Shown one piece after another: positions 55,819-59,517 of a DNA stretch of 64,000 nt (its first letter is position 1; the number at the start of each line of letters is the position of its first letter). The notes beneath the pieces were generated by a model, which had not been told where the DNA came from, did not search any database, and saw nothing but the letters and a program-made list of their open reading frames with translations. This DNA is from Amycolatopsis coloradensis (lineage in GTDB: Bacteria; Actinomycetota; Actinomycetes; Mycobacteriales; Pseudonocardiaceae), in NCBI RefSeq assembly GCF_037997115.1, contig NZ_CP150484.1, positions 5,372,400 through 5,436,399 on the forward strand, written 5' to 3'. The position numbers were made by a program, and so were the translations under genes.

Positions 55819-55880
55819 GCGTTTCGTCCTCTGAACGCGGTGGTTGCACACGCAAGCACCGCGTTCAGAGGACGAAACGC
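55819..55880. terminator. 24-bp perfect hairpin downstream of the membrane protein
   Basis: 55819-55842 and 55857-55880 are perfect 24-nt inverted arms (core CGTCCTCTGAACGCGG) with a 14-nt spacer. It lies 7 bp beyond the stop of the minus-strand gene at 55887. It is a strong terminator by position, though longer than most. Confidence 0.8.
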
Positions 55881-55886
55881 GAGGGG

Positions 55887-57677
55887 TCAGCCGACCGGGA
55901 CCTCACGCCGCCGCGCGGTGGCCGCGGCAGCGTAGAGCCACGCGAACAGCGCCCACATACCGGCGAAGATGAGCCCCACGGTCACGTAAGCGACAGTCCA
56001 CAGCACGGCGGGTGTGTCCGACTTCCGCTCCCGTTGCAGGAACTCGATCTCCGACATGAACGGGCGCGTGCCGGACGTCGCGTCGATCGACGGCGCGTTC
56101 GCGGCCGGGTCGGCGGGCGCGTAGATCGGGGCGAGCCCCATCACCCGGTTCGGGACGTGCACGCGGATCCCCGTCTTCCACTGGCCGAACACCGGCAACG
56201 GCTGGGCGGTGCGATACACCCCGTCGCCGATCTTCTCCAGCGGCGCGGTGAAGAAGTCGCCGCCCTGCCAAGCGAAACCGTTGAGCCACACGGCATCGTC
56301 GGCCAGGTCGGGCCGCGAGATCGTCACGGTCGCGTCGACCCAGCGGGGTGTGCCGCCGCCGTGCGGATTCGAGATCGGCAGCCCGGTCGCGGCCTCGGTC
56401 AGCCGGACGTCGGCGGTGAACCCCGGTTCCGGATCCTGCGGGACGGCGACCGCCGACATCAGGGCGACCGCGCCCAGCGCGCCGACGAGTCCGACCGAGT
56501 GCCGGGGCCCCGCCGCGGGCACCCGCGTCGCCGTCTCCTCCACTCGCTGGTACTGCCAGACACCGATGAACGTACCCGCGAGCGCCGCGCCGGTCCCGAA
56601 CAGGACGAACAGCGGCAGATGGGCGGCGGGCCACGGGTTCGGCATCAACCAGTGGGTGAACGCCGCCTCGGCGAGCATCCCGGCGGTCCCCACGAGCAGA
56701 CCGGCGACAGCGGCGAACGTGTAGCCCTGCCGGTTGCGCATCGCGAGGGCGACGACCTCGATGATCACCGCTTCGGCGACGTACGGCAGCAGCGAGGCTA
56801 CGTGCAGGTCCGCGAACAGCGGGATGACGGCGAACGAAGCACGGGACGCGAGGAAGACCGCGAGCACGATCAGCGCGCCGCCCGGACCCCAGGACAGCCG
56901 CCCGTAGGTCAGCGTCCAGGCGCCGATCAGGCCGACGAGCACGACCTGCGACAGCATCGGGAACTGCGGGACGCCGAGGTCGAACTCCATGAGGAACGCC
57001 GAAGCACCCATCATCCAGGCACCGGCGAGCACCGGGCCGAGCAGGCGCACCACCGGCCCGGTCGCGCCGACCTGACGGGCCTCGCCGAGCAGCAGTTGCA
57101 GGCCCAGCACGACACAGACGCCGCCGCCGATCATCAGGACGTGCGTCGGTCCCCATTCGGTGACGTCCTGGCCGAACAGGCGGTGCCACACGTCGTCGAG
57201 CGGGAAGCCCGCGATGCCGACCAGGCCGGTCGCCATCATCTGGATGGACCCCATCGGCGCCCGCCAGTGCGGGCCGATCTTGAACGTGCGCTTGGGCAGG
57301 TCCTTCGTCGCGAGGGTCGCGCTGAGCACGCCGCTGGCGAAGATGCCCATCAGTCCGAAGTAGATCGGGTAATGCGAAGGGTTCGCGAGCGGGCCTTCGT
57401 CGCGGCCGAGTTCCATGTGGATCGGCACGTCCCAGTAGACGCCGATCAGCGCCGACATCCCGGAGAGGAAGGCGACGAACATCGGCAGCGCCGCCCAGCG
57501 CGGCAGACCGCTGAACTCGCCCATCCAGTCGGCGACGCGGCCGAAGACCGTCCGCTTCCCCGCGCGCTCGCGGAGCACGAAAAGGGCCAAGGGCAGGAAG
57601 ACCGCGGTGAACATCAGGCCCGCGATGACGATCTGCCCGAATTGCGCGCCGCCGGCAGGCGGGCTCTCCTGAGCCAT
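55887..57677 (-). CDS. Large polytopic membrane protein with extracytoplasmic FixH-like domain
   Basis: A 596-residue protein with about 12 transmembrane helices in the first 430 residues. An extracytoplasmic beta-domain follows (GFTADVRLTEAATGLPISNPHGGGTPRWVDATVTISRPD, GDGVYRTAQPLPVFGQWKTGIRVHVPN), resembling FixH/YtkA modules. A final helix is near 570. Conserved-looking His/Asp pairs occur in loops (YWDVPIHMELGRDEGPLANPSHYPIYFG, DDVWHRLFGQDVTEWGPTHVLM). I do not recognise the family. It faces the cupredoxin-like gene across a palindrome. GTG 57683 is an alternative start. Confidence 0.78.
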   Translation of the reverse strand: MAQESPPAGGAQFGQIVIAGLMFTAVFLPLALFVLRERAGKRTVFGRVADWMGEFSGLPRWAALPMFVAFLSGMSALIGVYWDVPIHMELGRDEGPLANPSHYPIYFGLMGIFASGVLSATLATKDLPKRTFKIGPHWRAPMGSIQMMATGLVGIAGFPLDDVWHRLFGQDVTEWGPTHVLMIGGGVCVVLGLQLLLGEARQVGATGPVVRLLGPVLAGAWMMGASAFLMEFDLGVPQFPMLSQVVLVGLIGAWTLTYGRLSWGPGGALIVLAVFLASRASFAVIPLFADLHVASLLPYVAEAVIIEVVALAMRNRQGYTFAAVAGLLVGTAGMLAEAAFTHWLMPNPWPAAHLPLFVLFGTGAALAGTFIGVWQYQRVEETATRVPAAGPRHSVGLVGALGAVALMSAVAVPQDPEPGFTADVRLTEAATGLPISNPHGGGTPRWVDATVTISRPDLADDAVWLNGFAWQGGDFFTAPLEKIGDGVYRTAQPLPVFGQWKTGIRVHVPNRVMGLAPIYAPADPAANAPSIDATSGTRPFMSEIEFLQRERKSDTPAVLWTVAYVTVGLIFAGMWALFAWLYAAAATARRREVPVG

Positions 57678-57713
57678 GAACACCGTGCTCGCCTTCCTGC
57701 TAACCTGAGTAAC

Positions 57714-57731
57714 TGTTACCTTGGGGTAACA
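57714..57731. promoter_or_regulatory. Operator TGTTACC-TTGG-GGTAACA
   Basis: A perfect 7-bp inverted repeat around 4 nt lies between the divergent membrane-protein and cupredoxin genes. Further GTAAC/GGTTA halves stand at 57701-57713. It could co-regulate both sides; no regulator gene is adjacent. Confidence 0.6.
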
Positions 57732-57788
57732 CGATAGGCGCAAGGTCCCGGCCGGGCAAGCCGGGGCGTACGACTTGGAGGCACCTCG

Positions 57789-58154
57789 ATGCGGAGGATC
57801 GGCGGGATCTGCGGGATCACCGTGGCCGTACTGCTGGCCGTGACCGGCTGTTCGGGAACGACCGGTTCCGAACAGGCGCCGGGCGCCGGCACCCGGACCG
57901 TCAAGTTCTCGATCACTGAGGGCAAGCGCACGGCGGGCCCCGAGGAGGTCGCGGTGCGCACGGGCGAGAACGTCGCACTCGAAGTCACCTCGGACCAGCC
58001 GGACGAACTGCACGTCCACGGCTACGACAAGGCCGCCCAGCTGTCTCCCGGGGTTCCGGGGACGGTCGCCTTCACCGCGAACATCGACGGGATCTTCGAG
58101 GTGGAACTGCACAAGAGCGGCGCGGCGGTGACCAAGCTCCGGGTGAGCGGATGA
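57789..58154 (+). CDS. Cupredoxin-like lipoprotein
   Basis: A 121-residue protein with a lipoprotein signal (GITVAVLLAVTGCSG; lipobox LAVTGC, Cys 21). A compact beta-domain follows: RTVKFSITEGKRTAGPEEVAVRTGENVALEVTSDQPDELHVHGYDKAAQLSPGVPGTVAFTANIDGIFEVELHKSGAAVTKLRV. The HVHGYD segment and the beta pattern match cupredoxin_1-type domains; a classic C-x-M copper site is absent, so metal binding is not assured. It starts a three-gene unit with the next two membrane genes (ATGA overlaps). Confidence 0.85.
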   Translation: MRRIGGICGITVAVLLAVTGCSGTTGSEQAPGAGTRTVKFSITEGKRTAGPEEVAVRTGENVALEVTSDQPDELHVHGYDKAAQLSPGVPGTVAFTANIDGIFEVELHKSGAAVTKLRVSG

Positions 58155-59374
58155 TCCTGGCGCACGGTCTCGGCGGCCGGTCCGATCTGCCGGTCCCGCT
58201 GTGGCTCGCGCTCTACGCGGGAGCGGCGGCCGTCGTGGTCTCCTTCTTCGCGCTCACCGTGCTTTGGAAGAAGCCCAAACTCCGCGGCGCCGACGCCGGC
58301 CGCCCCCTTCCCGAAGCCCTGCAACGGTTCGCCGATGGTGGGTTCTCGCGGATCGCGGCGCGCGTACTCGGCTTGGCGCTGTTCGCGGGCTTTCTCGCGA
58401 TGGCGTGGGCAGGCCCGGACAACTCGGCCGGCAACCCGGCTCCGGCGTGGTTCTACGTCTGGTTCTGGGTCGGACTGGTCCCGCTTTCGCTCCTGCTCGG
58501 CCCGGTCTGGCCGCGGTTGAATCCACTGAGGACGATCGCGGTGCTGATCCCCGCGCGACAGCGCGAACTCCCGGATCGACTGGGTTACCTGCCCGCGATC
58601 GTCGGCCTCCTGGCGTTTCTTTGGCTGGAACTGGTGTTTCCGCATTCGGACTCACCCAGGGCGATCGCCTTTTTCGCCACCGTGTATGCCGTTATACACA
58701 TCGCTCTCGGGGCGGTGTTCGGTCCGCGCTGGTTCGACCGCGGGGACGCTTTCGAGGTCTACGCGCGTCTGATCGCGGCCCTCTCCCCTTTCGGGAGGCG
58801 GACAGATGGGCGCCTGGTGATCCGGAATCCGCTGGACGGCCTGCTCACCGTCTCCCCCGCGCCTTGGCTGACCGCGCTGGTGCTGGTGGTGCTCGGCTCG
58901 ACGGCGTTCGACGGCCTCACCCGGCTTCCGTTCTGGACGTCGCTGGACGCGGGCGTTTTCGGCGGCACCGCCGGGCTCGCGGTCTGTATCGCGCTCACCT
59001 ACGGCGCCTATGCGGGCGCCATCAGCCTGACCAGGCCGTATCTGCGCCGAGGGTTCGACCCGTATCCCGCGTTCGCGCCGTCGTTGATCCCGATCATGGT
59101 CGGCTACACGGTCGCGCATTACTTCTCGTTCGCCGTGTTCTCGGGCCAGCAGGGATTCGGCCGCGCGATCGACTACACGGTCGTCTCGGCCGAGGTGATC
59201 GCGCTGGTGCAGATCGCCGGGATCGTCGCCGGGCACGTGCTGGCCGTAACCTCGGCGCATGACCGTTCCGTCGGCGTGCTGCGCTCGAACTACGTCAAGG
59301 TGGGCCAGTACCCCATGCTGGCGCTGATGATCGGCTACACCGTGCTCGGGATCGCGCTGGTCTCCGGCTCATGA
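58151..59374 (+). CDS. Polytopic membrane protein of unknown function
   Basis: A 407-residue protein with about 10 hydrophobic helices. Distinctive loops are WAGPDNSAGNPAPAWFYVWFWVGLVPLSLLLGPVWPRLNPLRTI, LWLELVFPHSDSPRAIAFF and PIMVGYTVAHYFSFAVFSGQQGFGRAIDY. His residues in VAHYFS and IHIALG could bind metal or haem (inference). Start and stop overlap the cupredoxin-like and the small membrane gene by 4 bp each. I do not recognise the family. Confidence 0.8.
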   Translation: MILAHGLGGRSDLPVPLWLALYAGAAAVVVSFFALTVLWKKPKLRGADAGRPLPEALQRFADGGFSRIAARVLGLALFAGFLAMAWAGPDNSAGNPAPAWFYVWFWVGLVPLSLLLGPVWPRLNPLRTIAVLIPARQRELPDRLGYLPAIVGLLAFLWLELVFPHSDSPRAIAFFATVYAVIHIALGAVFGPRWFDRGDAFEVYARLIAALSPFGRRTDGRLVIRNPLDGLLTVSPAPWLTALVLVVLGSTAFDGLTRLPFWTSLDAGVFGGTAGLAVCIALTYGAYAGAISLTRPYLRRGFDPYPAFAPSLIPIMVGYTVAHYFSFAVFSGQQGFGRAIDYTVVSAEVIALVQIAGIVAGHVLAVTSAHDRSVGVLRSNYVKVGQYPMLALMIGYTVLGIALVSGS

Positions 59375-59517
59375 CCATCGCGGCGCGGGTGGTGATGATG
59401 CACCAGGGCGGCTGGGACGAGATCCTCATCTTCGCCGGCCCCGTGGTGATCATCGGGCTGCTCGTCTACGTCGCGCGCAAGCAGGCCCCGACGACACCCG
59501 AAGAAGACGACGATTAG
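59371..59517 (+). CDS. 48-residue single-helix membrane peptide
   Basis: ATG 59371 overlaps the stop of the preceding membrane gene (ATGA). The product reads MTIAARVVMMHQGGWDEILI, then a hydrophobic helix FAGPVVIIGLLVYVAR, then KQAPTTPEEDDD. It has one transmembrane segment with an acidic tail. Tight coupling and sensible codon use support a real gene, possibly a small subunit of the membrane complex encoded here. Confidence 0.75.
   Translation: MTIAARVVMMHQGGWDEILIFAGPVVIIGLLVYVARKQAPTTPEEDDD

Follow-up and report, generated by a model that had tools for sequence, protein, structure and literature searches.

The locus studied here lies on contig NZ_CP150484.1 of Amycolatopsis coloradensis, within a stretch of 64,000 nucleotides that we call the window and whose coordinates are used throughout. 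Four open reading frames, P0001 to P0004, are arranged around one divergent promoter, and the features of the locus are as follows:

55887..57677, minus strand: P0001, 596-residue polytopic membrane protein, a candidate single-chain PmoC-PmoA-like copper protein
56010..56447, minus strand: P0001 residues 411-556, predicted extracytoplasmic beta-sandwich (DSSP of the model), then a C-terminal helix, 557-586
56517..57059, minus strand: P0001 residues 207-387, PmoA-like transmembrane domain, fold match to 3rfr_B
57141..57197, minus strand: triad 2 codons, D161-x3-H165-x13-H179, spaced as in CuD but with Asp in place of Asn, invariant in 60 aligned sequences
57372..57431, minus strand: triad 1 codons, D83-x3-H87 ... 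R92 D93 ... H102, CuC-like, invariant in 60 aligned sequences
57714..57731, no strand: palindrome TGTTACC-TTGG-GGTAACA in the divergent promoter, a candidate operator
57789..58154, plus strand: P0002, 121-residue cupredoxin-like lipoprotein with conserved H75, H77 and H108 and no type-1 Cys
58151..59374, plus strand: P0003, 407-residue polytopic membrane protein with invariant H5, H323, H362 and H370
59371..59517, plus strand: P0004, 48-residue single-helix peptide with an acidic tail

The layout agrees with that described in an earlier note on this DNA: all four genes are present, each has homologs, and three of them are chained by ATGA overlaps at two junctions (58151-58154 and 59371-59374). 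The promoter palindrome it reported is TGTTACCTTGGGGTAACA at 57714-57731. The exact form TGTTACC-N4-GGTAACA has a single site across the 9.06 Mb genome, which is the one in this promoter; with two mismatches, nine further genome sites were found, versus two for a reversed control pattern. Among the 18 closest P0001 loci the palindrome is intact or near-identical in 11, and several others carry AGTAACAGTTACT-type half-overlaps. The proposal that it is the operator of the MerR regulator adjoining P0001 in other genera was rejected, as a similar palindrome lies upstream in just 2 of 62 further loci outside those first 18. The neighbours of the A. coloradensis locus (a peptide ABC transporter, a reductase and a sigma factor) point to no pathway.

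Only four histidines of P0001 (H87, H102, H165 and H179) are invariant among the 60 aligned sequences, and each triad also contains an invariant Asp. According to passages of PMC12576850 and PMC11194816, the PmoC ligands are D156, H160 and H173 for CuC and N227, H231 and H245 for CuD. The PmoC triads thus read D-x3-H-x12-H and N-x3-H-x13-H. Triad 1 of P0001 is D83-x3-H87-x14-H102, the spacing being x12 in a sister family, B; the Asn at the CuD position is replaced by Asp in all 60 sequences of the P0001 family, with the spacing and both His retained. A pattern of two triads 60-90 residues apart was found in all 82 family members, in 11/11 PmoC proteins and in one of 1,279 other called proteins. 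The triads are predicted to face outward because of a charge-based topology, in which K and R account for 15 of 73 inner-loop residues versus 1 of 55 residues in the short outer loops.

Profile comparisons with hhalign showed weak similarity to PmoC. The PmoC-like segment of P0001 ranked first against PmoC among 118 profile segments, reversed decoys included (E about 0.005-0.0071), and sister family B, aligned over 100 columns with both copper sites (CuC and CuD) in register, reached E 0.0015. Out of 60 column-shuffled PmoC profiles, none scored as high for the P0001 C-like segment, for family B or for the combined set, and one did for family C; the best match falls on the CuC site in all three sister families. 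Moreover, one family B protein lists AmoC in an unbiased Pfam scan (E 0.23, one of two families listed), its residues 28-134 being aligned onto positions 119-226 of the 245 of the model.

For residues 207-387 of P0001 the top match in VIA-align 2 was 3rfr_B, a PmoA chain (Z 12.7, 169 residues aligned with rmsd 3.3, against Z 6.2 in the next row); this Z value calls for caution, since such a score can by itself arise among helical proteins. By sequence, PmoA was second of the 118 profile segments, with a non-significant E of 0.039, and PmoB was thirtieth. The PmoA-like part of P0001 keeps many acidic and aromatic residues (E199, E231, R279, Y299, E307). PmoC is absent among the 50 VIA matches listed for P0001, which does not count against the PmoC likeness. 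No PmoA was found in viral contigs, a viral fold library gave no match to P0001, and PF02461 gave no match in the A. coloradensis genome, this last search having no positive control and hence not being proof of absence.

The C-terminal part had been described as FixH-like. An extracytoplasmic beta domain is indeed predicted there; its likeness to FixH is weakly supported, with 0/60 members matching FixH at E 0.1 and one sister protein matching below cut-off. The domain has middling similarity (Z 4.5-6.2) to many Ig-like domains, including those of the copper proteins CrdA and FetP. Among the 60 sequences, residues 411-556 hold no His that is invariant or nearly so, and the domain thus has no conserved histidines for CuB. 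Such histidines in the PmoB cupredoxins are not present in all CuMMOs.

Blue (type 1) cupredoxins use a Cys, two His and a Met as copper ligands. P0002 does not have this set: H75, H77 and H108 are conserved, and the only conserved Cys is that of the lipobox. Its description as a cupredoxin-like lipoprotein is upheld by the lipobox Cys (36/41) and the HxH pair (41/41) and not by the Pfam cupredoxin model, which stays below cut-off (E 0.027). P0003 matched no known family, in Pfam or otherwise, and its fold searches gave nothing usable, the best results being E 0.022 with Foldseek and Z 5.7 with VIA. An annotation of P0003 as "fenitrothion hydrolase FedA/FedB" was discarded, as the named plasmid matches say hypothetical protein and a literature search gave nothing relevant. 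None of the proteins of the locus is covered by Pfam or NCBIfam, as the earlier note had anticipated.

P0001 homologs were found in 35 of 296 genomes sampled from the phylum and, as strong matches, in 86 of 298 genomes of the order. P0003 is also encoded in 82 of these 86, and in 67 the two genes are less than 3 kb apart; the synteny that had been proposed as a check in other actinobacteria is therefore conserved for this pair. Homologs occurring singly, or relatives without the 48-residue ORF, had been named as evidence against a complex, and both were seen in part: 36 of 80 P0001-homolog loci have no P0003 partner in the stretch examined (at most 10 kb each side, often shorter), and P0004 was recovered in 26 of the 80, usually with the ATGA overlap, and was not found in the Actinomadura, Blastococcus or Saccharopolyspora loci. 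Neighbouring genes were called with a composition-based gene caller, by which some were missed or mis-started.

On balance we favour the reading of P0001 as a remote relative of copper membrane monooxygenases (pMMO/AMO) in a single polypeptide, a PmoC-like third being followed by a PmoA-like third. The proposed homology to pMMO/AMO is based on the motif, the order of parts, one fold match and profile scores that are weak. The copC neighbour of a P0001 homolog and the hmo neighbours of P0002-P0003 homologs, described below, also favour this reading. The order would be C then A, as in pmoCAB, because the PmoC-like triads precede the PmoA fold match at 207-387. The N-terminal third would thus resemble PmoC, with CuC-like and CuD-like triads (D-x3-H-x(13,14)-H) at the outer membrane face, and the middle third PmoA, and the beta-sandwich outside the membrane and the last helix may lie roughly at the place of PmoB. 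The triads would hold copper and activate O2 with electrons from the quinone pool, and P0001 may hydroxylate a small or lipophilic substrate. P0002 could pass copper (or electrons) on to P0001, its putative membrane partner being P0003, and P0004 may be a small accessory helix. The earlier reading of the locus as an envelope complex for metal or redox handling stands as far as it was stated, with synteny conserved and relatives beside copper genes and hmoCAB; it missed the likely PmoC-PmoA-like identity of P0001.

The gene neighbourhoods of relatives bear on whether P0001 is an enzyme at all. On a Mycolicibacterium plasmid a P0001 homolog adjoins copC, with CtaG, DUF305 and a BlaI/CopY-type regulator nearby, a context which would suit a P0001 of PmoC ancestry that handles copper instead of performing catalysis, as a sensor, exporter, importer or loading factor for envelope cuproenzymes, together with P0002 and P0003. 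The same role is favoured by the change of N227 to Asp, which would go against the Cu(I) chemistry that has been suggested at CuD, and by the frequent occurrence of P0002-P0003 without P0001 (P0003 without P0001 in 26 of 108 genomes). CcdA-like, thioredoxin-like and CopZ-like sequences, recognised by eye in sister-family loci, would also suit it. However, all triad ligands and the residues E199 to E307 listed above are retained, which is enzyme-like, and the MerR, flavin monooxygenase, SDR and hydrolase genes that neighbour P0001 in other genera look catabolic. In Kribbella and Nocardioides a Baeyer-Villiger-type flavin monooxygenase lies nearby, in some loci with an SDR and an alpha/beta hydrolase, and these neighbourhoods would fit hydrocarbon or ketone catabolism there; SDR and hydrolase genes are common in general, and the cases with a BVMO signature are mostly from Kribbella. 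We regard a role confined to copper handling as unlikely.

The PmoC likeness could instead be a common Asp/His motif at helix ends; P0001 would then be an unrelated oxidoreductase or hydrolase of the membrane, using zinc, iron or copper. Several searches agree with such convergence: hhalign probabilities were only 1-17% and none of the profile scores reached usual significance, Foldseek gave nothing below E 0.001 for P0001, PDB chains of pMMO or AMO were not recovered at E 10 by HMMER with profiles of P0001 or of either sister family, 0/60 family members matched Pfam AMO, AmoC or Monooxygenase_B at E 0.1, and Z 12.7 is a value for which caution is advised with helical folds. Nevertheless, convergence is made improbable by the paired motifs, whose spacing and order are right, by the PmoA-like fold that comes after them as in pmoCA, by the shuffle and decoy controls and by the CuC-site matches of the three sister families. 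The general reading of the earlier note, if taken as an envelope redox complex unrelated to monooxygenases and linked, for instance, to respiratory oxidase assembly, is very improbable. In its favour, cytochrome c oxidase genes (ctaD, subunit III, CtaG) lie within about 12 kb of a P0001 homolog on one plasmid, and one sister protein weakly matched FixH below cut-off (E 0.007, 16.8 bits against a 23-bit cut-off). Against it, this context was found on that one plasmid only, and no oxidase genes lie near the A. coloradensis locus in the window.

More tentatively, and with somewhat less than even confidence, P0001 might found an unrecognised, widespread actinobacterial class of copper monooxygenases made of one polypeptide, joined by at least two sister families and oxidising hydrocarbons or trace gases; if so, it would have been overlooked because no family model reaches such proteins. 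In one sister family a hydrophobic stretch is followed by a conserved A-x-A-H-D-P-G-Q-G; cleavage, if it occurs, could leave a histidine at the N-terminus, as in PmoB. Methane and ammonia oxidation are controlled by pMMO and AMO, which are hard to express because three membrane subunits are needed. If our reading is true, ordinary culturable bacteria of the soil, among them the actinobacteria Amycolatopsis, Kribbella, Blastococcus and Actinomadura, would offer in a one-chain relative a tractable system for studying the CuC/CuD chemistry, which is disputed. Copper monooxygenase potential would extend to many bacteria without such annotation, and the finding would inform views on the origin or splitting of the three-gene operon.

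The canonical CuMMO is described in a passage of PMC6215863 as three subunits from three genes, xmoCAB. P0001 has C-like and A-like parts in one 596-residue ORF, and its CuC-like triad, D83-H87-H102, is invariant in 60 sequences, though with x14. It falls outside the canonical CuMMOs: it is encoded by a single gene, CuB histidines are lacking, Asp stands at the position of the CuD Asn and no Pfam match exceeds the cut-off. Its likeness to PmoC/AmoC (PF04896), which is subunit C of pMMO/AMO/HMO, lies in two triads of matching spacing that are separated by about 75 residues, with R-D and P-x-H in the first motif and a G following it; it differs in the 14 rather than 12 residues of triad 1, in the Asp for the CuD Asn and in a direct sequence match that is not significant. 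The fold match to PmoA (PF02461) comes directly after the PmoC-like part, in the order of pmoCA, whereas in P0001 it is fused to the C-like part and sequence similarity is not significant. As in PmoB, there is an extracytoplasmic beta domain flanked by helices, and a cupredoxin-like lipoprotein carrying an H-V-H pair is encoded separately beside it; unlike PmoB, P0001 has no conserved His in its beta domain, no second beta domain and no profile match. The role proposed for P0002-P0003, a cupredoxin-like protein and a membrane partner beside a copper monooxygenase, would resemble that of the accessory proteins PmoD and CopC-CopD of pmo operons (PMC6189053), although these are other families and P0003 is without a Pfam match. 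The HmoCAB/BMO of actinobacteria differ in their three genes and significant Pfam AmoC match; hmoC was found in 0/298 genomes of the order, in a search without a positive control that is hence not proof of absence. P0002-P0003 homologs lie close to hmoCAB, 1-10 kb from the hmo genes on all four actinobacterial hmoC plasmids.

All four genes reported in the earlier note are present as stated:

55887-57677, minus strand: P0001, a 596-aa membrane protein
57789-58154, plus strand, divergent from P0001: P0002, a 121-aa cupredoxin-like lipoprotein
58151-59374, plus strand, ATGA overlap with P0002: P0003, a 407-aa membrane protein
59371-59517, plus strand, ATGA overlap with P0003: P0004, a 48-aa single-helix peptide

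The ATGA overlaps are two, chaining P0002, P0003 and P0004 on the plus strand with P0001 divergent on the minus strand, and the palindrome described between the divergent genes is found as TGTTACCTTGGGGTAACA at 57714-57731; no second exact match to its pattern exists in the 9.06 Mb genome, and close relatives retain it. The view that no known family covers the set also stands, P0001, P0003 and P0004 being without a Pfam or NCBIfam model and P0002 having a sub-cutoff cupredoxin match in Pfam. Judged by inspection, the surrounding genes in the window encode a peptide ABC transporter, a reductase and a sigma factor. A perfect 23-bp inverted repeat (arms 55820-55842 and 55857-55879), probably a strong terminator, lies directly past the P0001 stop, between this gene and that of a peptide-binding protein.

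It appears rather likely that P0001 is a one-chain protein resembling the copper membrane monooxygenases (CuMMOs). Metal would sit at one or both of its outward triads, P0002 and P0003 would serve it by supplying copper (or electrons), and P0004 possibly accompanies it. This reading builds on observed conservation, spacing, topology, gene order and synteny; metal, electron donor, substrate and turnover we infer.

An alignment of 60 sequences leaves P0001 with just four invariant histidines, H87, H102, H165 and H179, which lie in two triads, D83-x3-H87-x14-H102 and D161-x3-H165-x13-H179, with an equally invariant Asp four residues before the first His. According to the available text of PMC12576850 and PMC11194816, the ligands in PmoC of pMMO are D156, H160 and H173 at CuC (D-x3-H-x12-H) and N227, H231 and H245 at CuD (N-x3-H-x13-H). 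The actinobacterial HmoC sequences examined have the triad pattern of PmoC. Triad 1 of P0001 has x14 where CuC has x12, whereas triad 2 shares the x13 spacing of CuD but begins with Asp (D161) instead of Asn (N227). All 82 called family members and all 11 non-redundant PmoC have two such triads 60-90 residues apart, as does one of the 1,279 remaining proteins called in these loci.

Lysine and arginine number 15 in the 73 residues of the inner loops of P0001 and one (R92) in the 55 of the short outer loops, a bias which places both triads and the beta domain on the outer side. The AlphaFold model is confident (pLDDT 93, pTM 0.92), and Foldseek gave it no match below E 0.001. When VIA-align was run over the top 998 Foldseek chains, residues 207-387 matched 3rfr_B (Z 12.7, rmsd 3.3, 169 residues aligned; second row, Z 6.2), which is PmoA judging by the PmoA entry of 3rfr and the chain length. 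Since the tool warns that helical proteins may reach such Z values through arrangement alone, this modelled match is support, not proof, for a PmoA-like part.

In P0002, H75 and H77 are kept in 41/41 sequences, H108 in 40 and the lipobox Cys in 36, and no type-1 copper Cys is conserved. The invariant histidines of P0003 are H5, H323, H362 and H370; fold searches matched it to no known fold. Four of the 10 plasmid records with hmoC-like genes are actinobacterial, and each of the four has, ~1 to 10 kb from its hmo genes, P0003 homologs preceded by a small partner gene. Unannotated P0002-P0003 homologs stand beside hmoCAB on these plasmids (L142, L143, L145, L148; hosts Mycobacterium dioxanotrophicus, Mycolicibacterium chubuense NBB4 and two Rhodococcus) and are possibly accessory genes of the hydrocarbon monooxygenase. 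On the Mycolicibacterium vanbaalenii JOB5 plasmid a P0001 homolog lies immediately downstream of copC, and this region of copper and oxidase genes also carries P0002-P0003 homologs. Beside such surroundings, the reading that P0001 is a copper-handling protein of the same ancestry also has to be weighed; we hold it to be rather unlikely. P0003 is broader than P0001, with matches also on haloarchaeal and proteobacterial plasmids. Its homologs on haloarchaeal and rhizobial plasmids (L146:7566-8948; ~30% identity over residues 123-405) have different surroundings, which gives P0003 a wider role.

A further alternative is that the triads are a convergent site. Profile comparisons bear on it from both sides. 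By hhalign against PmoC, whole P0001 gave E 0.057, aligned at triad 1, and residues 1-206 in a wider alignment gave 0.0071. Among 118 segments, which took in reversed decoys and other families from the loci, residues 1-206 ranked first (E 0.0052; next segment 0.02), residues 207-387 came second against PmoA at E 0.039, and against PmoB the C-terminal part stood 30th. The weak matches of the order search gave two sister families (L247-L261): family B matched PmoC with E 0.0015 across 100 columns that keep both CuC and CuD in register, and E was 0.0097 for family C and 0.0062 for the combined set. None of 60 column-shuffled PmoC profiles matched the real score for the PmoC-like segment of P0001, family B or the combined set; for family C one of 60 scored as high. 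A family B protein as query retrieves P0001 (E 3e-7). The hhalign probabilities reach 17% at most, HMMER profiles against PDB found no pMMO or AMO chain at E 10, and Pfam CuMMO models matched 0/60 P0001 family members. We hold convergence to be improbable. Scanned against all of Pfam, one family B protein listed two families and no other, FixH at E 0.007 and AmoC at E 0.23; its AmoC alignment falls on the correct positions. AmoC is absent from the Pfam listings of the other four members. A respiratory assembly role for P0001, to be set beside the FixH match and the JOB5 oxidase genes, is highly improbable.

Family B (L247, L248, L259, L260, L261) has an invariant A-H-D-P-G-Q-G behind a hydrophobic stretch; cleavage at this point would leave an N-terminal His similar to that of PmoB (AHGE). 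Of the wider family, the own genome holds at least two members besides P0001: one of family C, 413 aa long (1694925-1696160; L266, L267:7926-9149), and a third stretch at 2430261-2430743 within a 440-aa frame.

Homologs of P0001 occur in 35/296 genomes of the phylum. In the order (298 genomes, strong matches) P0001 is found in 86, P0003 in 108 and both in 82; adding weak matches brings P0001 to 93, and any test of the association is inflated by kinship among genomes. In named genomes, the best 80 of 570 relatives gave 80 loci, all actinobacterial by record title (Amycolatopsis, Actinokineospora, Kribbella, Blastococcus, Actinomadura, Nocardioides, Solirubrobacter, others), with P0003 in 44 (opposite strand to P0001 in 27, same in 17) and P0002 in 36. 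The synteny that the earlier note had linked to an envelope complex holds in part: P0001 and P0003 lie <=3 kb apart in 67/298 order genomes, but in 36/80 loci P0003 was not found within flanks of up to 10 kb each side, often less. Likewise, the 48-residue frame is recovered in 26 of these 80 loci but not in the remainder. The P0003-P0004 ATGA overlap is seen in Amycolatopsis, Actinokineospora and Kribbella, and two further genomes of the order have a comparable single-helix peptide after P0001.

In 66 loci surveyed with the closest Amycolatopsis left out (raw counts), 25 have a divergent MerR-type regulator adjoining P0001; at a distance of <=8 genes, 12 have an FMO-like flavin monooxygenase, 10 an SDR and 8 an alpha/beta hydrolase. 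A large protein with FxGxxxHxxxW, which we take to be the Baeyer-Villiger signature, occurs in 10 of the 80 loci from the best 80 of 570 relatives. Its gene immediately precedes P0003-P0004 in Kribbella, and the three tandem P0001 copies of Nocardioides phosphati (L083:9884-16042) are followed by such a flavin monooxygenase. Such neighbours suggest that a carbon compound may be oxidised in those genera. The suggestion does not extend to the window, with its transporter, reductase and sigma-factor genes.

In the openly available, non-preprint literature, as far as its accessible text goes (including PMC9038741 and PMC10030591), no fused or PmoC-like actinobacterial family was found. CuMMOs are described in the accessible text of PMC6215863 as three-gene xmoCAB enzymes. 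P0001 falls short of the canonical kind in gene number, at CuB and on Pfam cut-offs, and we therefore do not file it as a CuMMO; it is probably a new variant related to that kind.
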